From Cellvibrio zantedeschiae (GTDB lineage: Bacteria; Pseudomonadota; Gammaproteobacteria; Pseudomonadales; Cellvibrionaceae): 64,000 nucleotides of DNA. The notes beneath the pieces are model-generated. The model did not search any database and was not told the DNA's origin. It saw nothing but the letters and a program-made list of their open reading frames with translations. This document shows positions 10,120-63,566 of this stretch, piece by piece. Both the position numbers and the translations under genes were made by a program. The stretch is from NCBI RefSeq assembly GCF_014652535.1, contig NZ_BMYZ01000002.1, forward strand, positions 62,001 to 126,000, in the 5' to 3' direction. Within the stretch, counting starts at the first letter, position 1; each line of letters starts with the position of its first letter.

Positions 10120-10140
10120 TCCGGTCTTCATCTATCTGCT

Positions 10141-10168
10141 AAAAGCTCTTTGTAAGTGAAGAGCTTTT
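10141..10168. terminator. Bidirectional intrinsic terminator
   Basis: AAAAGCTCTT (10141-10150) and AAGAGCTTTT (10159-10168) form a perfect 10-bp stem with an 8-nt loop between convergent genes (DUF5610 on plus, DUF2063 on minus). It can serve both. Confidence 0.75.
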
Positions 10169-10203
10169 AAATCAATCGCTCATGCGTACCTGTTTTTTTT
10201 GTT

Positions 10204-10956
10204 TTATGTTTGGTTGCAGAATATAAGCTCGTCTTGCGCAAGTGTGCGCAATACGGACAAGACTCTTGGTAGCAGTATTTCTTTAGTGTGATTATCAAGC
10301 TCTTCCGCCAGGAGCTGGAATATTTGCGAATAGTTGATTTTTTCATGCGCTTGTAGCAATTGAATAATGCGTAGGCTTAAACCGTCCGTCTCTAAAATTT
10401 CCAAATCATCATTTCGTTTTCTATGTACCAATAAATAAGTTGGTTGCGCGGTTTGCTCTATGGGCAAATAATCTTTGTCAATAATGTGCACGGGGTAGGA
10501 ATAAGTCAATCCAACAACAAACGGTGACGCATTCCAAAGCGAGCTTTCTGCAGGCTCTGGGATGCATGTTGTTTCCGGCAAACTTAAATCAGCAATATCT
10601 ATGGCTAATTGAATCCATTCAAAATGCATAAGTTCAATAATGAATGGGTAATCTGTTGGCTGCAATTTTCGAGTGTTGACGAAATATGCTAGAAACTCTT
10701 GGCAAATCTCCAAAAAATAAGGCGTGTGCGAAGGATGGATTTTAATGAATTCACGTATCATTGCCTCCCATTCGCTTTCAGGAATAATGCTTTTCGTTGT
10801 TTGGAACACGTCTGAAATACATTGACTTATATTTTTATAAATCAGATCGCGATAAATTTCTTCTTGTCTGGATTTTTTATCGTTTGCTGAATCTCCACTT
10901 GTGTTTCCACGTAGATATTCGGTAAAAGCCAGTTGAGTGTGCTGAAAAGATTTCAT
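10204..10956 (-). CDS. DUF2063 / HvfC-BufC-type partner protein of an MNIO enzyme
   Basis: A 250-residue protein of the DUF2063 family. The N-terminal part (MKSFQHTQLAFTEYLRG, YRDLIYKNISQCI) and the helical PYFLEICQEFLAYF, LMHFEWIQLAID segments match the putative DNA-binding/peptide-handling domain of HvfC/BufC proteins. These partners bind RiPP precursor peptides and are needed by MNIO (DUF692) oxidases, as in the hvf and buf systems. The C-terminal half (about 160-250) looks like a winged-helix recognition element (LLQAHEKINYSQIFQLLAEEL). Its ATG overlaps the MNIO stop codon (ATGA, 10953-10956), so translation is coupled. It is the last gene of the three-gene operon. Confidence 0.85.
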   Translation of the reverse strand: MKSFQHTQLAFTEYLRGNTSGDSANDKKSRQEEIYRDLIYKNISQCISDVFQTTKSIIPESEWEAMIREFIKIHPSHTPYFLEICQEFLAYFVNTRKLQPTDYPFIIELMHFEWIQLAIDIADLSLPETTCIPEPAESSLWNASPFVVGLTYSYPVHIIDKDYLPIEQTAQPTYLLVHRKRNDDLEILETDGLSLRIIQLLQAHEKINYSQIFQLLAEELDNHTKEILLPRVLSVLRTLAQDELIFCNQT

Positions 10957-11813
10957 GTTTTTTGACTGCTTGATAGCGTTTGGTATTCCATTATTTGATT
11001 AATTTCCTGTAGGAGTGCATTAATTGGTGGGATATTATTTTCACGTTCTAGTAAGGTTGGCCTTACACCAAATAATGAATAGGCGAGCTGCAGCAGGCTC
11101 CATACGTCTTTCACTACAGGGGCGCCATGAGTATCTGTGTAGAAGCTTTCTCTTTCGGTGTCGTGCCCCGCAATATGAATATAAGCAGTCCGCTCACCGT
11201 GCAAATTTTGCAGAAATTCAAGAGCATCATATTGATGGTTAACACTGTTTACGTACAGATTGTTTACATCCAACAATAGAGCGCAATCTGCTTCGTACAT
11301 TACGGCGTTAATAAATTCCCATTCAGCCATTTCTTGTTGGGGGGCGTAGTAATAGGTTGCGTTTTCTATCGCAATGCGTTGGCCAAGAATATCCTGTGCC
11401 TGGCGAATACGCGATGCAACATAATGCACAGCATCTTCGGTAAAGGGTATTGGAAGTAATTCGAAGAGATTGCCAGCATCGCCGGAATAGCTGAGGTGTT
11501 CGCTGTAGTAGTGGATCTTGTGTTGACGTAAAAATACTTTAACTGCTTTTAGTAAATCGATATTTAAAGGAGCAGGTGCTCCCAGTGAGAGCGAGAGCCC
11601 ATGGCAAACAAAAGGAAATTTTTCAGTATACGACCTTAGTTGTTTGCCTAGACGGCCGCCAACATTAATCCAGTTTTCCGGGGCAACTTCCAAAAAATTA
11701 ATATCTTCAGCGCTCAGATGATTCAATTTATCGAGCAAGCTGCGGTGCAGGCCAAGGCCCGCACCGCTAACAGAAGCAGAAAAATTCTTATCTACCATCA
11801 TTAATGGCCGCAT
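10953..11813 (-). CDS. MNIO (DUF692) family RiPP-modifying iron oxidase, HvfB/BufB-like
   Basis: A 286-residue TIM-barrel enzyme of the multinuclear non-heme iron oxidase family. Family metal-ligand segments are visible: VCHGLSLSLG (His71), YYSEHLSYSG (Glu105, His106), AIENATYY (Glu150), LLLDVNNLYVNSVNH (Asp182, His193), YIHIAGHD (His213, His217) and DTHG (Asp227, His229). MNIO enzymes oxidise Cys or other residues of precursor peptides, for example to oxazolone-thioamide or thiooxazole, usually making metal-binding products. The ATG at 11813 abuts an AGGAGG site. ATG 11801, which overlaps the precursor stop as TAATG, is better spaced and may be the real start. It is coupled to both neighbours. 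Confidence 0.9.
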   Translation of the reverse strand: MRPLMMVDKNFSASVSGAGLGLHRSLLDKLNHLSAEDINFLEVAPENWINVGGRLGKQLRSYTEKFPFVCHGLSLSLGAPAPLNIDLLKAVKVFLRQHKIHYYSEHLSYSGDAGNLFELLPIPFTEDAVHYVASRIRQAQDILGQRIAIENATYYYAPQQEMAEWEFINAVMYEADCALLLDVNNLYVNSVNHQYDALEFLQNLHGERTAYIHIAGHDTERESFYTDTHGAPVVKDVWSLLQLAYSLFGVRPTLLERENNIPPINALLQEINQIMEYQTLSSSQKT

Positions 11814-12028
11814 CCTCCTGATGGAAGCGCGCGCATGCTGCGCGCACGTTTCTTTTCATCTGCTTTCTTTTTTTCTGCAGCCGCACGAGCAGCATCCTCT
11901 GGAGTTTGACTTTGTTGGGTGGTAGCAGTTTCTTTGGTTGGAGTCGCGGCGCAAGAAGATAGGCCGACAGTCATTATAAATGCAGCACTTACCGCAACGG
12001 CAAGTGGTGTAGAAAGTAATTTATTCAT
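11801..12028 (-). CDS. Putative lipoprotein-type RiPP precursor with C-terminal GGCGH core
   Basis: A 75-residue peptide from ATG 12028, with a GAGG site 8 nt upstream; a TTG at 12049 is less likely. Residues 1-25 form a signal sequence ending in GLSSC, a lipobox-like motif that would place a lipidated Cys26 followed by Ala. A Thr/Gln-rich linker and a charged Ala/Lys/Glu helix (about 44-63) lead to a tail RALPSGGCGH with the only other cysteine, Cys73. The stop overlaps the MNIO start region, and MNIO and DUF2063 genes follow directly. I infer that this is the modified substrate. It lacks the EGKCG repeats of HvfA and the multi-Cys core of bufferins, so it appears to be a different precursor class. 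Confidence 0.7.
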   Translation of the reverse strand: MNKLLSTPLAVAVSAAFIMTVGLSSCAATPTKETATTQQSQTPEDAARAAAEKKKADEKKRARSMRALPSGGCGH

Positions 12029-12166
12029 ATAGTACCTCAGTGAAAACAATGATTAAGGTTTAGGTTTTGCAATCCATTTCGATTTAACAAGTCTTGCAAC
12101 AGAAGGATTCTATTCCTTGATTCCTTTGTTGATTTCTTCAAGAGTGACGAGGTTGAAGATCGTTAT

Positions 12167-13117
12167 TTAAAAAAGATCGTAGTGCTCCACGATTTTTTTA
12201 TTATCTACACGGAACATATCTACCAAGGTTAAATTGCCGTCGCCTTTAAAGGTCCATACCAGGTCATCGTCAGATATAGTGGCGAAAAAACTTAATCCTC
12301 CCGGTGTTCGTGCGTTAACAAAGTTCCTAAGCGCTTCGCTGCCGTTGGGGACATAGGGATTATGTTGGAGGTAACTTGGCGCGATGTTCTGGTCAATCAA
12401 ACTCAGGTTTTTATCGTTGAATAGGCCCAGGTATGTCGAAGTAACGAGTTGATTATTAGCGGCCTCTGAATCTTGTGTAGCTACGGGCTTGGTGCCCGTA
12501 TATTTATAGAGATCACTAAAGAGCGAGTTTCCGCTAACAGTGGTATCGCTCAGGTTTGCAGACAAGTGCCAATGCTCGATAATTTTATTGCCCGCTACCC
12601 TGTAGAGATCTACAACCGCTTTACCATTAAATTCATTGTCAGGTTTAGCGGAGAGGTGCCAGTGTGCGGCGACATAATCGCCATCGGCCGCAAGATGTTT
12701 TAGGGTGGCAATGTAATTGGGATTGTTATTTTTCAGTGATTGTAAGTGCGATGTTTCGCCAGTGGCCCCGTTATTGGCACCAGAAATATGCAGTATTACG
12801 TTAGCATCAAAATAAGTGTTAACTAGGTCGGTCTTTCCTCCGTTCATAATGTCAGTGTAAATTTTTTGTACTAAGTCCTTGTTTTTAGATTCACAATCCT
12901 GCGTCATGCAGGGGGCAGCTGAGCTTGAGCTGCTACTGACTGAGCTGCTGGTTGCGATAGAACTTGCCGCTGCGCTGGATGTTGTTGAGCTGGCACTACT
13001 CAGCGAGCTACTGGATGACGGAATAGCGTCCTTAGCCGGTTCTTTTGAATCACTACTGCCGCCGCAGCTGCTTAAGCTAATGAGCAGCGTCGATAGTATA
13101 AGCGAGTGTATTTTCAT
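12167..13117 (-). CDS. SnoaL/NTF2-like lipoprotein with poly-serine linker
   Basis: A 316-residue secreted lipoprotein: the signal peptide ends at SLSSC (Cys18), followed by a long Ser-rich linker (about 33-67) of the kind common in Cellvibrio envelope proteins. Then come two NTF2/SnoaL-like domains in tandem (about 78-190 and 205-316), each with the pattern of a short helix (LVQKIYTDIMNGG; LVTSTYLGLFNDKN), a QHNP or HISGANNG loop, and a C-terminal strand (KIIEHWHL; KIVEHYDL). The fold binds small hydrophobic ligands or catalyses simple isomerisations; no activity is assignable here. The ATG at 13117 has a GGAAA site. It is divergent from the CadC-like regulator, which may control it. Confidence 0.75.
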   Translation of the reverse strand: MKIHSLILSTLLISLSSCGGSSDSKEPAKDAIPSSSSSLSSASSTTSSAAASSIATSSSVSSSSSSAAPCMTQDCESKNKDLVQKIYTDIMNGGKTDLVNTYFDANVILHISGANNGATGETSHLQSLKNNNPNYIATLKHLAADGDYVAAHWHLSAKPDNEFNGKAVVDLYRVAGNKIIEHWHLSANLSDTTVSGNSLFSDLYKYTGTKPVATQDSEAANNQLVTSTYLGLFNDKNLSLIDQNIAPSYLQHNPYVPNGSEALRNFVNARTPGGLSFFATISDDDLVWTFKGDGNLTLVDMFRVDNKKIVEHYDLF

Positions 13118-13356
13118 TTTAATTTCCTTTTTCGAGTGAGAAGGTCTAAACGAGAGGCCGCTTTTTAAAGCTAGCCAGCCGTAACACGAATATTTCAGCT
13201 ATTCGTTTCGCGCAATCAAATTGAATTGCTGGTAATGTGCGCCAGTCGAAGCATGCGGGCGCATTAAGCGAAAAACGGATGGCTATTGCCATTACGATAA
13301 AATAATGAAAATATTTATTTATTATCTCTATATAAATCAAATGGATAGATGCTGGT

Positions 13357-15438
13357 GTGAAAGCTTTATTAATGGATAAATTTTCTTTCGATAAGATTGT
13401 TGTTGATCCAAAATCTAATACGATCTATTTAAATGGTGTCGAAAAGCGCCTTGAGCCAAAACTTATTAGCTTGCTCTGCCTATTGGCTGCGCAAGGGCGG
13501 GATGTTATTTCTCGTCAGGACATAACCCAAGCTATTTGGTCGGATGTTGTGGTCGGCGAAGAGTCAATTACTCGCGCTATTTTCGCGCTGCGCAATGCCT
13601 TGGGGGATGATGCAAAACAGCCTAAATATATTGAGACCATCCCGAAAAAAGGCTACCGCTTTTTAGTGGATGCAGAAGTCGTCAAGGATTCCCCTCCACT
13701 TGAACCCCTGACTACCAAGGTTCTGGTCGCCAAAAAAATATCATGGACCGTCTACAGTGCGGCCGCAATTCTGTTGATCATTGTTCTGTTTGGGATCTGG
13801 CAAAAATACACGATTCCGAATGTTGAAATCGAAAGCATCCTGCCCTTAAATAAAATGGAAGGAGTTGAAAGGGATATCAGCCTGAGTGCTGATGGCACCA
13901 AGCTTTTGTTTATTCATGAGTTTGATCAGAGAAATGATCTTTACAGTCGCGATTTGGCTAACGCAAAAGATATTCTTTGGGTGCGTGATGATTTTTTCAA
14001 AACATCACCTATTTGGATTGATGCCAATACCGTTGCTTATATTCGCCAAGCAGGTGGCGAGAGTCAGCTGGTGCGTAATTATCAAGGGCAACCGCCGCAG
14101 ATTCTTTATACGTCTGCCAAGCGAATTATGAAGTTGGCCATGGCTAGTGGCGATACCGAAAATTTATTCTTTCTAGAGTTTCAGAATAATGATCTCATTG
14201 AATTGAAATCACTCAATTTGCGTAATGGTAAACAACAAACTTGGCGTGATTCGATTTCAGGGCTCCCCCATAAAATTGGTCAATTACAACATTCGACGAA
14301 ATCCAATACTTTGTTGATGGTACAGAACGAATATGATAGCCCTGCTATTATTTCGTTAGATTTAAATACGAAGAAAATTACGACAATTAACAATAGTAGT
14401 CATTTTAGTGAAATTAATAAGCTTGTTGCTATTAATGATCAGTCTGTTTTAGTCGTTGGTGTTATGGGGGCGGCTGAGGGAATTTGGTTTGTTGATGAAC
14501 AAAAACGACCACAATTAGTGCTTCGTTCTTCAGGTTCGGAAAAGATTGTTGATGCGCAATTTGATGTTAGTCGTAACATTATCTTTTATACCAATCTACA
14601 GAAAAATGCAGATATCCAAATGGTTTCTGCTAAAAAATCAGAAATATTACCCTTGCCTGAATTAAATTCGAGTGGCATCGATATACAGGGGATGTTTGTC
14701 GGTAATAATAAGTTTATCTATTTCATCTCTAACCGCACGGGTTACTACGATGTGTGGCGCTACGATACAGAATTAAAATCTGTTAAACAGATTACAAAGT
14801 TGAATGCTTTATCTATGACCTGGTTTTCGTTATCACATGATAATAAAAAGCTTGTGGTTGGATATCGTACGGAAGGTTTGTCTTTAGGTGTAGTTGATGT
14901 TGAAACCGGTAAATTATTAAACCACGTTAAAACGCCTTCTCGCCGTCATCCGCTGGGGTGGAGTAACGACGACAGGGTCATATATGCCAGCGAACACGAA
15001 GCAGAGATCAATCTGTTTAATTATGATGCCATTACCTTAAAGCAATCCCTGTTCGCTGAAAAATCCGGCTTGTACGTAAAGGATCTGGATGGAAGAAGAG
15101 TGGTGTATGTTGACTATGCCCGTCACGCCTTGGTAGAGCGGGATTTGGAAACGAAACAAGAAAAAATATTGCACGACAAAATTTCTGATTTAACAGCCTT
15201 GGCGCCGCGAAAAATCACCCTGAATAAAACGAACGATGGGTTTTACACAAGTTGCCAAATAGAGTGGGCTCATAAAACCTGCTTCTATTCTTTGTCAGTA
15301 GCCAATGGGTCACCGGTTTTTGTAAGTGATATTCCTTTTTGGAAGGTGTTTGATATTGCGGAAGATGGTGAAAAACTCTTAGTGATGGATACCAAGCCTT
15401 CATCTGGCGATATTATGAAAATGCAGCTGCGGGATTAA
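13357..15438 (+). CDS. CadC-like membrane transcriptional regulator with beta-propeller-like sensor
   Basis: A 693-residue protein: an N-terminal winged-helix OmpR/CadC-type DNA-binding domain (about 9-103, with SRQDITQAIWSD, EESITRAIFALRNALGDD and YIETIPKKGYRF), a single membrane helix (about 129-148) and a large periplasmic region of about 540 residues with TolB/WD-like repeats (DISLSADGTKLLFI, GYYDVWRYDTELK, SHDNKKLVVGY). Such proteins bind promoters while anchored in the inner membrane and read a periplasmic signal. The start is GTG 13357 or ATG 13372. It is divergent from the SnoaL lipoprotein gene. Its stop codon falls at the edge of a duplicated sequence block (15434-15528). Confidence 0.85.
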   Translation: MKALLMDKFSFDKIVVDPKSNTIYLNGVEKRLEPKLISLLCLLAAQGRDVISRQDITQAIWSDVVVGEESITRAIFALRNALGDDAKQPKYIETIPKKGYRFLVDAEVVKDSPPLEPLTTKVLVAKKISWTVYSAAAILLIIVLFGIWQKYTIPNVEIESILPLNKMEGVERDISLSADGTKLLFIHEFDQRNDLYSRDLANAKDILWVRDDFFKTSPIWIDANTVAYIRQAGGESQLVRNYQGQPPQILYTSAKRIMKLAMASGDTENLFFLEFQNNDLIELKSLNLRNGKQQTWRDSISGLPHKIGQLQHSTKSNTLLMVQNEYDSPAIISLDLNTKKITTINNSSHFSEINKLVAINDQSVLVVGVMGAAEGIWFVDEQKRPQLVLRSSGSEKIVDAQFDVSRNIIFYTNLQKNADIQMVSAKKSEILPLPELNSSGIDIQGMFVGNNKFIYFISNRTGYYDVWRYDTELKSVKQITKLNALSMTWFSLSHDNKKLVVGYRTEGLSLGVVDVETGKLLNHVKTPSRRHPLGWSNDDRVIYASEHEAEINLFNYDAITLKQSLFAEKSGLYVKDLDGRRVVYVDYARHALVERDLETKQEKILHDKISDLTALAPRKITLNKTNDGFYTSCQIEWAHKTCFYSLSVANGSPVFVSDIPFWKVFDIAEDGEKLLVMDTKPSSGDIMKMQLRD

Positions 15439-15528
15439 TACACATCCCGCACATAACGTTTATCCATATTTAATTTACGCATATGGTTTGCGGTTTCGGC
15501 TTCGTCAAATTTTCCGTATTTTTTGGAT
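15434..15528 (-). pseudogene. Decayed duplicate of the 3' end of the nitrate reductase gene
   Basis: This 95-bp block matches 17046-17139, the last codons of the nitrate reductase fusion gene. The first 49 bp are identical; the rest has about five substitutions and a one-base T insertion in a T run. On the minus strand it still encodes KYGKFDEAETAN-H-MRKLN and the terminal KRYVRDVY plus stop, but nothing upstream of it is reductase-like. The intervening Sel1/TonB gene therefore lies between two copies of the same gene tail. It is a relic of duplication or recombination, not a functional gene. Confidence 0.85.
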
Positions 15529-15543
15529 GCTAGAAATAGACTG

Positions 15544-16947
15544 TTACTCTCGCCATGCTTGGTGCTGTTGGTAGGCTACTAAACGCGCTTCCAATTCTGT
15601 TAGTGGATAATCAATTTTCTTTGCTAAATTTATGGCTGTTTTTTGGGTTTTAATCGCTTCATCAAATATACCATTGGCTGCCTGCGCTGCGGCTAGATTT
15701 TCATTTGCGCGGAGTTGATCCGGGTACTTCTCATAAATGTTTGTGACTAACTCCATGGCGCGTTTGGGGTCGCGGACACTGTCATTTGTATCGGTTGCTA
15801 AAATCCATGCAAGGCGCATGGCTGCTTTTTCGTGGCCACCGGCAACGGCGTGATTCAACCACTCAATCGCTTGCTGTTTGTTTTGCGCAAACTTATTTGA
15901 ATTTAAAAGCGAAACTCCCAGAAAATACTGCGCGTTTGGGTTGTTACTTTTGGCGGCCAAGGTCAGCCAATAGACCCCCTTGGTTTGATCTGTTTTGCAG
16001 CCTTCGCCGCGCATTAAAGCTTTGCCAATTTCATATTGCGCATGTGGCAAACCCGCTTGTGCGGCTTTGAAATACCAACTGTTGGATTCTTGCTTTTGCA
16101 CCTGAAGTTCTGGCAATAAATTTGCGATATAGGCGAAAGAATACATATCCACCACTTTGCCAGATTCTGCTTTGCCTCTTAACTCGTCAATATATTTTTT
16201 AACGGCATCTTTATTGAGGGTTGAACCCGCAATACTAAACTTTGCGCGCAATTGAGTAACGGCTACTTCAGTGGCTTTACCGTCGACCAATACGGGTTGG
16301 TACTGCCATTTTTTGAGCGCCGTGAGTACAGCTTTCTCAAAACCTTTATCGGTGGCTACGATGATTGAATAGTCGCGCGCAAAACCGAGTTTGTCGATTG
16401 TATATTCAACATCAACCGATCCGCCCTTGTTTTGGTTAATGAGTTCGTTAGGGTATAACGGCGCAGGCATTTTTAAGGGTGCAAGCTGAAATTGACACTC
16501 CATATCCGAGAGCATCACAGGTGTGAGTTTTTCTTGTAGCGCTTGATCACTCATTTGTGCGAGCAATTCAGTGGCTCTGGCTAACGCTTGTGACTTTTCG
16601 TCTGGTGTTAGGCGTTTGTTTATCAGGTCGCGCACGTGTGCTTTATTGGCATCACCATCGGATGCCGCAAGTGCTGTCCACGCATAAGCTTCAATTGGAT
16701 TTTTGTCTATGCCTTCTCCTCTAAAGTACATTACGCCAAGATTCATCTGAGAGTGCTTATGGCCTAGTGATGACAAGCGCTTAAACTCGGTCATGGCGCT
16801 GGTAAAATCCTTGGCCTCGTAGAGTGCCATTGCGCTGTCAAAATCGGCGTGGGCGAGCGGAGTGCTAATGATAAAAAGAAAATTGAATAAGGTTAAGGCT
16901 GCTACACCAAAACCTTTGTTAACGCGGGAGGGAGATATGATCTTCAC
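15544..16947 (-). CDS. Periplasmic Sel1-repeat protein with internal TonB C-terminal-like domain
   Basis: A 467-residue protein with a Sec signal peptide ending near ISTPLAHA (about residue 34). Sel1/TPR-like repeats follow (about 36-105, with SQMNLGVMYFRGEGIDKNPIEAY). A TonB-C-like domain comes next (about 158-240: APLYPNELINQNKGGSVDVEYTID, ALKKWQYQPVLVDGK). Further Sel1 repeats fill about 285-410 (AQYEIGKALMRGEGC, AQYFLGVSLLNSN), with a final TPR-like helix pair. A TonB domain without an N-terminal membrane anchor cannot be a classical TonB, so a periplasmic binding or scaffold role is likelier. It lies 99 bp downstream of the nitrate reductase gene, between duplicated tails of that gene. 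Confidence 0.8.
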   Translation of the reverse strand: MKIISPSRVNKGFGVAALTLFNFLFIISTPLAHADFDSAMALYEAKDFTSAMTEFKRLSSLGHKHSQMNLGVMYFRGEGIDKNPIEAYAWTALAASDGDANKAHVRDLINKRLTPDEKSQALARATELLAQMSDQALQEKLTPVMLSDMECQFQLAPLKMPAPLYPNELINQNKGGSVDVEYTIDKLGFARDYSIIVATDKGFEKAVLTALKKWQYQPVLVDGKATEVAVTQLRAKFSIAGSTLNKDAVKKYIDELRGKAESGKVVDMYSFAYIANLLPELQVQKQESNSWYFKAAQAGLPHAQYEIGKALMRGEGCKTDQTKGVYWLTLAAKSNNPNAQYFLGVSLLNSNKFAQNKQQAIEWLNHAVAGGHEKAAMRLAWILATDTNDSVRDPKRAMELVTNIYEKYPDQLRANENLAAAQAANGIFDEAIKTQKTAINLAKKIDYPLTELEARLVAYQQHQAWRE

Positions 16948-17045
16948 ACAGATTCCTTTTGTTGGCTAGATGGGCTTGTTGGTGTATCCATGGTGCCATC
17001 ATAAAGGAAATGTATTTGTCTAACAAATAAAGGGATGTGGTGTTA

Positions 17046-17140
17046 ATTAATACACATCCCGCACATAACGTTTATCCATATTTAATTTACGCATGTAGTT
17101 GGCTGTTTCGGCTTCGTCGAATTTTCCGTATTTTTGGATG
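17046..17140. repeat. Source copy of the 95-bp duplicated block (nitrate reductase 3' end)
   Basis: The functional 3' end of the reductase gene, matching 15434-15528 in direct orientation about 1.6 kb away. The pair frames the Sel1/TonB gene. Confidence 0.85.
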
Positions 17141-61694: not shown

Positions 61695-63566
61695 ATGTTA
61701 AAAATAAATCACTTGATGTTGGCTTTTATGCTTGCGGTTATTGTAGTTCCTGCCCAGGCACAGAAAAATTATAAAAATTTTAAAGTAGCAGTTTATTCCA
61801 GATCCTACGAAACCAAGTTGATGGCAGACGAACAATGGTTGGATAGGACCTGGACGGAAGTCACTAACCAACTTAAGGTCGACAAGATCTATTTAGAAAC
61901 CCATCGCGACCTTGTCATGGTTGACCAGAAAACATTAGACACTGCCAAAGCCTATTTTAAGAAAAAAGGCGTTGAGATGGCTGGTGGTATTACCTGGACG
62001 ATTGACGAAAGCAACAATTTTGAAACCTTTTGCTACAGCAATCCTGAGCACCGTAAAAAAGTGCAAGAGATTATTGAATTTACTGCAAAGAATTTTGATG
62101 AAGTGATTTTCGACGATTTCTTTTTTACCAGTTGTAAATCCGATATTGAAATTAAAGCCAAGGGGAACAAGAGCTGGACTCAGTACCGTTTGGATTTGAT
62201 GACGGAAGTTACCAAAAACATCATGCTCGCATCTGCCAAGAAGGTGAATCCTAATGTTAAGGTTATTGTGAAGTACCCTAACTGGTATGAACACTTTCAG
62301 GGCTTGGGTTTTAACCTTGAAACTGAACCCAAATTGTTTGATGGTATTTATACAGGTACAGAAACCCGTGATGCCACGCTAAGCGCACAGCATTTACAAG
62401 AATACCTGGGTTATGAAGTCATTCGTTATTTTGAAAATATTGCGCCCGGCCGCAATGGCGGCGGATGGGTTGATCCTTTCGGCATTAAAACCTACGACCG
62501 TTACGGTGAACAACTGTGGTTGACGCTTTTTGCAAAAGCTCCGCAAGTTGCTTTGTTTGACTTAAAAAATATTCAAGCACCCCTCACTGAAAAATTAAAA
62601 GCGTCCTGGCAGGGCACGGGTACCAGCTTTGATTATGCTGAAATGATGAAGCCAGTTCAGGTGGATGGTAAGTCGATAAAACCAACGACGATTGCCAGGG
62701 TGGCTGGTATTACTTTTGAAAAAGTGGACAAGTTTTTGGGTGAGTTAGGAAATCCCGTAGGGTTAAAGAGCTATAAGCCTTTTCATTCCACGGGCGAGGA
62801 TTTCTTGCAGAACTTTTTAGGTAATGCAGGTATCCCCATTGAGATGGTTCCTTATTTCCCTAAAGATGAAAATGTTATTTTGTTAACCGAGTCTGCCAAG
62901 TTTGATCAACAGCTGGTGCCACAAATTAAAGCGCAATTAACAGCGGGTAAAAAAGTTGTCATTACGTCTGGATTGCTTAAAGCTATTCAAGATAAATTGA
63001 GTGATATAGTCGAATTGCAATACACCGACAGAAAAGCCTTGGTAAAAGATTTCTTCTTTAATGGAAAGTCTTATCACGGTGACAAAGCGATTCTAATTCC
63101 GCAAATTCAATACTTAACTAATGACTCCTGGGAAGTTATCTCCAGTTATGATGGCCCTAATGGTTGGCCGCTGTTGCATGGGGCTGATTATTCCAAAGGT
63201 CGCTTGTTAGTATTGGCGGTACCGGAAAATTTTGCGGACTTATCCCAGCTACCTGCTGAGGTTTTAACTAAACTCAAACGCGAATTGAGCGATGATAAAA
63301 CCGTATTGGAAGGCCCGGGTCAGATGAGTTTATTTTTGTACGACAACAACACCCTGATCGTTCAGAGCTATCGCGATGCGCCAGTTGACGTGAAAGTATC
63401 TGCGGTAAAAGAGTTTACCCAGATGAAAGATATACTTACTAATGAAGTCTTGAAAGCTGAGGTTAGAAAACCTGACATGCATTGGGGTAAAGCAGTGGGT
63501 AGTGAAAAAAGTGTGTTCAGTGTAACTGTTAAACCACATTCTTATCGTGTGTTTAAGTTGCAGTAA
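61695..63566 (+). CDS. Large secreted protein, possible uncharacterised glycoside hydrolase
   Basis: A 623-residue secreted protein with a signal peptide ending near VVPAQAQ. The first 300 residues read like a TIM barrel: ETHRDLVMVDQKTL, a strand EVIFDDFFF (136-144) with Asp140/Asp141 at a position where glycoside hydrolases carry catalytic acids, VIVKYPNWYEHFQGLGF and LFDGIYTGTETRD. The second half is a Rossmann-like region (KVVITSGLL, GRLLVLAVPENFADL) plus a final beta domain (HSYRVFKLQ). I recognise no GH family. Neighbouring esterase genes suggest carbohydrate degradation; this is inference. Confidence 0.6.
   Translation: MLKINHLMLAFMLAVIVVPAQAQKNYKNFKVAVYSRSYETKLMADEQWLDRTWTEVTNQLKVDKIYLETHRDLVMVDQKTLDTAKAYFKKKGVEMAGGITWTIDESNNFETFCYSNPEHRKKVQEIIEFTAKNFDEVIFDDFFFTSCKSDIEIKAKGNKSWTQYRLDLMTEVTKNIMLASAKKVNPNVKVIVKYPNWYEHFQGLGFNLETEPKLFDGIYTGTETRDATLSAQHLQEYLGYEVIRYFENIAPGRNGGGWVDPFGIKTYDRYGEQLWLTLFAKAPQVALFDLKNIQAPLTEKLKASWQGTGTSFDYAEMMKPVQVDGKSIKPTTIARVAGITFEKVDKFLGELGNPVGLKSYKPFHSTGEDFLQNFLGNAGIPIEMVPYFPKDENVILLTESAKFDQQLVPQIKAQLTAGKKVVITSGLLKAIQDKLSDIVELQYTDRKALVKDFFFNGKSYHGDKAILIPQIQYLTNDSWEVISSYDGPNGWPLLHGADYSKGRLLVLAVPENFADLSQLPAEVLTKLKRELSDDKTVLEGPGQMSLFLYDNNTLIVQSYRDAPVDVKVSAVKEFTQMKDILTNEVLKAEVRKPDMHWGKAVGSEKSVFSVTVKPHSYRVFKLQ

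Follow-up and report, generated by a model that had tools for sequence, protein, structure and literature searches.

A candidate reduced and re-tuned hvfABC operon with a lipoprotein-like precursor bearing a single core cysteine in Cellvibrio zantedeschiae

The 64,000-nucleotide stretch of the Cellvibrio zantedeschiae contig NZ_BMYZ01000002.1 considered here (positions 62,001 to 126,000; hereafter the window) carries on its minus strand three adjacent open reading frames (ORFs), all intact, in the order precursor gene, MNIO gene and DUF2063 gene. This operon looks like a reduced and re-tuned version of a known copper-binding peptide system, and an unusual variant of it. Here it is proposed, at about an even chance, that it is a derived hvfABC (captophorin) operon, in which an HvfB-type MNIO modifies a single cysteine, Cys73, of a lipid-anchored product. 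The most likely product is one modified Cys on a lipid-anchored tail. The proposal draws on the gene content, the family membership of both enzymes, the resemblance of the signal peptide and tail of the precursor to HvfA, and the altered sites of the MNIO.

Organisation of the operon and its enzyme families

The precursor gene (11801..12028, minus strand) starts with an ATG at 12028, preceded by a GAGG stretch ending 6 nt from it, and has 75 codons followed by the stop TAA at 11803-11801. The HvfB-family MNIO gene (DUF692; 10953..11813, minus strand, read from the ATG at 11813) and the gene for the HvfC-family partner (10204..10956, minus strand) share an ATGA, their ORFs running from 11813 to 10953 and from 10956 to 10204. 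A TAATG (11803-11799) combines the precursor stop with a candidate MNIO start, and an AGGAGG (11814..11819, minus strand) lies within the Ser-Gly-Gly codons of the precursor tail, where it may serve as the ribosome-binding site of the MNIO gene. Because the ATG at 11813 abuts this AGGAGG without a spacer, a start at 11801 or 11798 appears likelier, and the precursor and MNIO genes probably overlap by 1 nt only, within the TAATG. A preliminary description, made from the sequence alone, had recognised an overlapping MNIO and DUF2063 operon of the type making ribosomally synthesized and post-translationally modified peptides (RiPPs), together with the 75-codon gene, its lipobox-like signal, its single core Cys and the tail RALPSGGCGH; the Pfam matches, the ATGA overlap and the sequence bear all of this out.

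Both enzymes belong to the Hvf families. The MNIO matches the Pfam family MbnB_TglH_ChrH (PF05114) with an E-value of 2.5e-96 and passes the NCBIfam equivalog model of HvfB (NF003818; 395.1 bits against a cut-off of 360). A BufB (bufferin-type) identity was rejected, as the score with the corresponding model (NF050167) is 248.5 bits, under the cut-off of 310; the ChrH model gives 43.2 bits, its cut-off being 600. The partner matches DUF2063 (E 9.8e-19) and NGO1945_C in Pfam and passes the HvfC equivalog (NF050145, PME-type 1) with 207 bits for a cut-off of 142. The best solved chain for the MNIO is 3bww, and the only one matched by the partner is 3dee; PMC13097082 names them as an MNIO and a PME1, respectively. 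In the MNIO tree, the enzyme is placed within a 16-row clade (95/92) made up of 15 rows of the genus, including its own, and one locus of another genus (L077), and L076, though of the genus, is placed outside that clade. The genome also has a second MNIO locus (L001), with a multi-Cys, bufferin-like ORF 5' of the MNIO gene.

A precursor resembling a reduced HvfA

The precursor begins with MNKLLSTPLAVAVSAAFIMTVGLSSC, ends in RALPSGGCGH and has two cysteines, Cys26 in the lipobox and Cys73 in the tail. Its signal peptide (11951..12028, minus strand) has an HvfA-type h-region, STPLAVAVSAAFI, and includes the lipobox LSS-C26 with Ala at +2; the LSSC pattern match, with a charged n-region and an uncharged h-region, points to a putative lipoprotein signal. 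The presumed core, SGGC73GH (11804..11821, minus strand), is C-terminal and aligns with the last GxCG of HvfA. Between the signal and the tail lies a stretch of about 48 residues with many Ala, Lys and Thr, and the central part of the protein is low-complexity Ala/Lys. The precursor contains one GGCG only and no EGKCG repeats, and also lacks the NPF..GY-type motif after the signal peptide.

For comparison, an MNIO search at an E-value of 1e-20 gave matches in 138 of the 144 family genomes and in 253 of the 390 from the order. The comparison loci include those of the family with an HvfB-type MNIO (at least 46% identity among the matches listed), some of the order and some from 43 named public contigs. 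Besides the window's own locus (L135), the family has 104 unique loci with an HvfB-type MNIO, 103 of them with a readable precursor; the upstream DNA of L049 was too short. The wider precursor table has 182 rows, 171 with a chosen ORF and 11 without any xCG ORF, and leaves out loci under 43% identity, L161 (a duplicate of L083, whose precursor carries EGKCG repeats) and other duplicates. As precursor, the ORF richest in xCG within 700 nt before the MNIO gene was chosen, a rule that favours repeat precursors; in L084, L085, L086 and L097 it probably picked an ORF other than the precursor (in L084 to L086 the MNIO gene is directly preceded by a DoxX gene).

With this choice, all 103 readable family precursors have 2 to 18 xCG motifs, 99 have the NPF..GY-type motif following the signal peptide, and none has a lipobox. 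When all ORFs of 40-200 aa within 700 nt 5' of the MNIO gene were rescanned in the 104 family loci, only three showed a lipobox match (L013, L016 and L018); these frames end 373-454 nt before the MNIO gene, carry 4-6 Cys and look like chance frames. Among the 171 chosen ORFs of the wider table, the lipobox pattern is present only in the C. zantedeschiae precursor and in L117, where the signal reads as one with an ordinary cleavage site after the lipobox-like match. The CGH tail noted in the preliminary description is not unique, since eight of the 103 family precursors end in xCGH: L028, L029, L167, L176, L184, L198, L200 and L081 (EGKCG-type). In these eight, the terminal His behind the last repeat may be an extra ligand. 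It was also considered whether the overlap with the AGGAGG alone forces the GG of the tail; this is possible, but it does not explain the CGH, because L028, L029 and L081, the three of the eight xCGH relatives whose junctions were viewed, end in xCGH without an AGGAGG.

The resemblance of the precursor to HvfA exceeds chance. When a profile of 123 HvfA N-termini was run over 1293 signal-like N-termini, among them the query and duplicates of it, the precursor scored 19.7 bits (E 3.9e-5). All 63 higher-ranking entries are HvfA-type precursors adjacent to an MNIO gene, many of them also part of the profile, and the first entry further down, leaving the query aside, reaches 8.4 bits. The best local alignment with an HvfA spans from the signal peptide to the last GxCG with a score of 89, the top of 300 shuffles being 62, where each shuffle was compared with just the 60 best precursors and the real sequence with all that have at least 2 motifs. 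In a weaker position-matrix test, 13 of 1302 "controls" scored at or above the query, and the eight of them inspected are HvfA proteins missed by the filter. By these alignments, the precursor is read as a stripped-down HvfA, in which the last Cys motif and the signal peptide, the latter with an added lipobox, remain and the repeats and the NPF..GY motif have been lost. The preliminary description had set it apart from Hvf precursors; this stands for the lack of EGKCG repeats, but an end-to-end alignment with HvfA takes in its signal peptide, its linker and its last Cys, and the enzymes encoded next to it are of the HvfB and HvfC families.

From the search for homologous precursors suggested there, no homologue is claimed. 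With the 75-aa precursor as query, 57 relatives gave two matches at an E-value of 0.001, its own genome and one 586-aa frame, and 369 genomes of the class gave six at 0.01, its own and five with E-values of 0.003-0.009 in frames of 121-788 aa. Partial loss of repeats is present in another genus of the family, where the HvfA-type precursor of L208 retains just two Cys and includes a series of HGEGMQ repeats free of Cys. Within the same genus, L076 has a divergent HvfA with repeats degenerated to EGRCA, EGKCA and EGVCA; its MNIO is 57% identical to that of the window and has kept RRDF at the four sites discussed below.

Altered MNIO sites, proposed product and competing explanations

Beyond the preliminary description, the MNIO appears altered at positions that bear on recognition of the substrate and on catalysis. 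In a model of FonB, Arg15 and Arg16 flank Glu1 of the repeat and Phe250 lies near Lys3 and Gly5; Asp249 is the proposed base, and the D249A variant left the peptide unmodified (PMC13097082). FonB positions 15, 16, 250 and 249 were equated with positions 23, 24, 259 and 258 of the window MNIO, numbered from the ATG at 11813, through the motifs GAGLGLRR and LLERDF and their spacing. By this inferred mapping, His23 (11745..11747, minus strand) corresponds to FonB Arg15, and Glu258-Asn259 (11037..11042, minus strand) to the proposed base Asp249 and the selectivity residue Phe250. The window MNIO thus reads H-R-E-N, with one of the four sites kept, where 177 of 180 other HvfB-type enzymes read R-R-D-F, a combination conserved in EGKCG-type enzymes and no formal criterion for HvfB. 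The 182 aligned enzymes include the window MNIO and the second MNIO of the genome; besides the HREN of the window, only L107 (KRDF), L113 (RRDL), L116 (RNDN) and L001 (RSDD) depart from RRDF, and Glu at the Asp position occurs in none of the remaining 181.

Eight of 85 near-invariant columns are changed in the window MNIO, the third-highest count among 181 after L116 (10) and L113 (9). Three of the four named sites fall among these eight (hypergeometric P 0.002); the sites were taken from PMC13097082 and the eight changed positions had been listed before, although two of the sites are adjacent and perhaps not independent. The window MNIO retains 21 of the 23 His, Asp, Glu, Asn and Cys positions that at least 97% of 83 other MNIOs share, D118E and D258E being the two differences; a Cys at the 95% conservation level is also altered (C110S). 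By sequence, the enzyme is unusual, and the residue in place of its proposed catalytic Asp is a Glu. Changes at the other named sites need not kill the enzyme, because FonB with Ala at Arg15, Arg16 or Phe250 still formed product (PMC13097082). L113 and L116, which are HvfB-type MNIOs with altered pocket residues and precursors without EGKCG, are further candidates for re-tuned MNIOs.

In the lipoprotein targeting rule of the Lol pathway, Ala at +2 directs a protein to the outer membrane. In the mechanism proposed here, the HvfA-type signal peptide would be the leader by which HvfC recognises the precursor, and the only Cys of the tail, Cys73 in SGGC-GH, would be oxidised by the HvfB-type MNIO to a single 5-thiooxazole (-4 Da). 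The peptide would then be exported by Sec, lipidated at Cys26 and cut by signal peptidase II, and, given the Ala at +2, it would reach the outer membrane by way of the Lol pathway. The end product would be a Lys/Ala-rich tether of about 48 residues with a thiol-bearing Cys-Gly-His tip in the periplasm. Its likely role would be that of a membrane-bound ligand for a soft metal (copper), in which two anchored peptides could act together rather than one chelator with several sites.

Full-length HvfA of Haemophilus received about five of six modifications in vitro, and less than one without its signal peptide (PMC13419390); FonBC accepts Ala, Arg or Thr before the Cys and requires a small residue after it (PMC13097082). 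From these results, the kept parts of the precursor, the signal peptide and the last Cys motif, are the parts that matter. Substrate and enzyme also seem to have changed together, the EGKCG repeats being lost and the named MNIO sites altered, which is counted in favour of a derived hvfABC operon.

Several points weigh against it. FonBC left a substrate with one EGKCG repeat unmodified (PMC13097082), which argues against this precursor as a good substrate for an ordinary enzyme, and the characterised EGKCG products bear several modified Cys. Gly before the Cys is not among the FonBC variants described in the available part of PMC13097082, and the residue equated with the Asp of the unproductive D249A variant is Glu here. 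The NPF..GY-type motif of 99 of 103 family precursors is missing, and this form of the precursor was seen in no second species among the 57 relatives and 369 class genomes searched. Finally, L076, L117 and L208 have unusual precursors and yet keep R-R-D-F, so that a change in substrate and a change in enzyme are not strictly linked.

A stronger form of the proposal, tentative and clearly less probable than its plain form, is that a captophorin system was converted to a single-site, membrane-anchored one. Its repeats would have shrunk to one C-terminal Cys-Gly-His, a lipoprotein signal would have been gained, and the substrate-reading residues and catalytic Asp (to Glu) of the MNIO would have changed accordingly, possibly with altered chemistry on the tail. 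If true, nature would here have re-specified an MNIO along with its substrate.

The main competing explanation, unlikely although the strongest of the three considered, is a decaying hvf locus, in which selection was lost, the precursor lost its repeats and the enzymes drift with no functional product. The loss of repeats agrees with this, as do the count of changed near-invariant MNIO columns and the long end branch of the MNIO, 0.53 against 0.02-0.24 in the 13 other members of a 14-row group, all of the same genus. The partner shows 34-40% identity to those of 14 members of the genus, for which the median among themselves is 58%. Five species of the genus (G003, G005, G006, G017 and G020, the latter 77% complete) have only a 37-40% MNIO match among the matches listed, and the genome retains its second MNIO locus with the multi-Cys, bufferin-like ORF. 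However, the three frames are intact and coupled through TAATG and ATGA, both enzymes score above their equivalog cut-offs, and the MNIO changes cluster at the named sites. Change is also rarer in the columns near-invariant across the family (8/85) than in other genus-conserved ones (22/109), though at a P of only 0.046. A long branch alone is no sign of decay either, as L077, from another genus within the 16-row clade, has 0.56 with a many-Cys precursor.

It is less probable still that the MNIO was re-tuned to another reaction on the C-terminal Cys-Gly-His, different from 5-thiooxazole formation and permitted by the Glu at the position of the proposed catalytic Asp. The H-R-E-N set is unique, its Glu is shared by none of the 181 others, and other MNIOs perform different reactions on C-terminal residues (Table 1 of PMC12452194). 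Nevertheless, Asp to Glu is a conservative change, and the enzyme falls among the HvfB enzymes, of which those characterised form 5-thiooxazoles. That the precursor is a small lipoprotein unrelated to the MNIO pair, which would act on another peptide, is very improbable given the HvfA-type signal peptide, the hvf-like gene order and overlap and the tail Cys in GxCG, even with a low-complexity Ala/Lys middle and, among its weak sub-cut-off matches, the Ala-zipper lipoprotein model NF040598 (15.9 bits, cut-off 43).

Related systems and genomic setting

The closest known systems are the EGKCG-type captophorins HvfABC/oxazolin, fontiphorin (fonABC) and bulbicupramide (mmrABC), which share the order precursor, MNIO and DUF2063 gene, the HvfA-type signal peptide, the HvfB and HvfC families and a Cys in GxCG. 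In contrast to HvfABC, fonABC and mmrABC, the operon of C. zantedeschiae has no EGKCG repeats, one core Cys in place of several, a lipobox, no NPF..GY motif, and HREN instead of RRDF. NedA of Neisseria dentiae is likewise a precursor with a lipoprotein signal modified by an MNIO and its partner, and has been shown to be tri-acylated and modified; unlike the single SGGCG and changed MNIO found here, it has three EGKCG motifs, with -12 Da in all (PMC12636315). RiPP lipoproteins of the DybA/chryseobasin type also combine a lipidated precursor, a C-terminal core and an MNIO, but of another MNIO subfamily, with a CPACGMG core and macrocycle chemistry (PMC12636315). A lipidated MNIO product, as suggested in the preliminary description, has published precedents in DybA and NedA.

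Bufferins (Buf1 and Buf2) share the signal peptide, the MNIO and the DUF2063 partner, but Buf2 precursors have 6 or 12 conserved Cys and those of Buf1 four, and the window MNIO scores under the BufB cut-off. About 16% of Buf2 precursors have lipoprotein signals (PMC12452194), and a CxxxxC group of MNIO-modified lipoproteins has been predicted (PMC12636315). Hundreds of small ORFs with signal peptides and 1 to 18 Cys lie beside MNIOs according to PMC12452194, whose available part has a single mention of Cellvibrio, for a PME-type 2 protein. The literature searched, as far as its texts were available, describes no one-Cys lipoprotein derived from HvfA, although Table S2 of PMC12452194 may list this precursor, and no HvfB enzyme with Glu at the base position. 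The MNIO family numbers tens of thousands (PMC13097082), and how its enzymes choose their Cys is still an open question. A one-site, 75-residue substrate with an enzyme that differs at sites named by mutagenesis would offer a handle on substrate selection and on the proposed catalytic Asp in three small genes, and may extend the short list of RiPP lipoproteins.

A single DoxX (HvfD) query, taken from L086, had no match in the window at E-values up to 1e-3, and no transporter was found by Pfam among the ten proteins scanned between 6523 and 21228 of the window, in agreement with the preliminary description. The minimal three-gene system pointed out there is not special, since none of the 17 fetched loci L062-L078, 15 of them of the same genus, gave a DoxX match at an E-value of 1e-6. 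A layout of three genes without DoxX is therefore ordinary for the genus, and the fon cluster has three genes as well (PMC13097082). In L084, L085, L086, L088, L094, L095 and L096 a DoxX gene is located immediately 5' of the MNIO gene; in the other loci matching DoxX it is placed after the partner gene.

The operon is part of a 6.9-kb segment (10120..17046, unstranded) that also includes a SnoaL lipoprotein-like gene, a CadC-like gene and a Sel1/TonB_C gene and is absent between the same neighbours in G005 and G003 (loci L155 and L156), where the DUF5610 gene adjoins the molybdopterin/flavodoxin oxidoreductase gene. The differing gene order of G020 (L157) does not decide the matter. A 90-nt copy (94%) of the 3' end of the oxidoreductase gene is present at 15434-15523, and the segment looks like one or two insertion events at the end of that gene. 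Horizontal transfer was considered on account of this absence, yet the MNIO stands in the tree among HvfB enzymes of the same genus, and transfer and relocation are indistinguishable. No clear signal comes from the GC content either, which is 0.385-0.498 in the operon genes for a value of 0.446 in the window. Since eight terminator-like hairpin sites were found in the region for 3.6 expected, the one at the end of the SnoaL gene makes separate transcription only a guess. The SnoaL-type protein (12167-13117) contains SnoaL_2 in two stretches, has a lipobox-like sequence (LSSC) at its N-terminus and includes a linker rich in Ser, and its best match among 20 other genomes of the genus is 33% identical. 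The CadC-like protein (13357-15438) combines a DNA-binding Trans_reg_C domain with a PD40 beta-propeller-type region.

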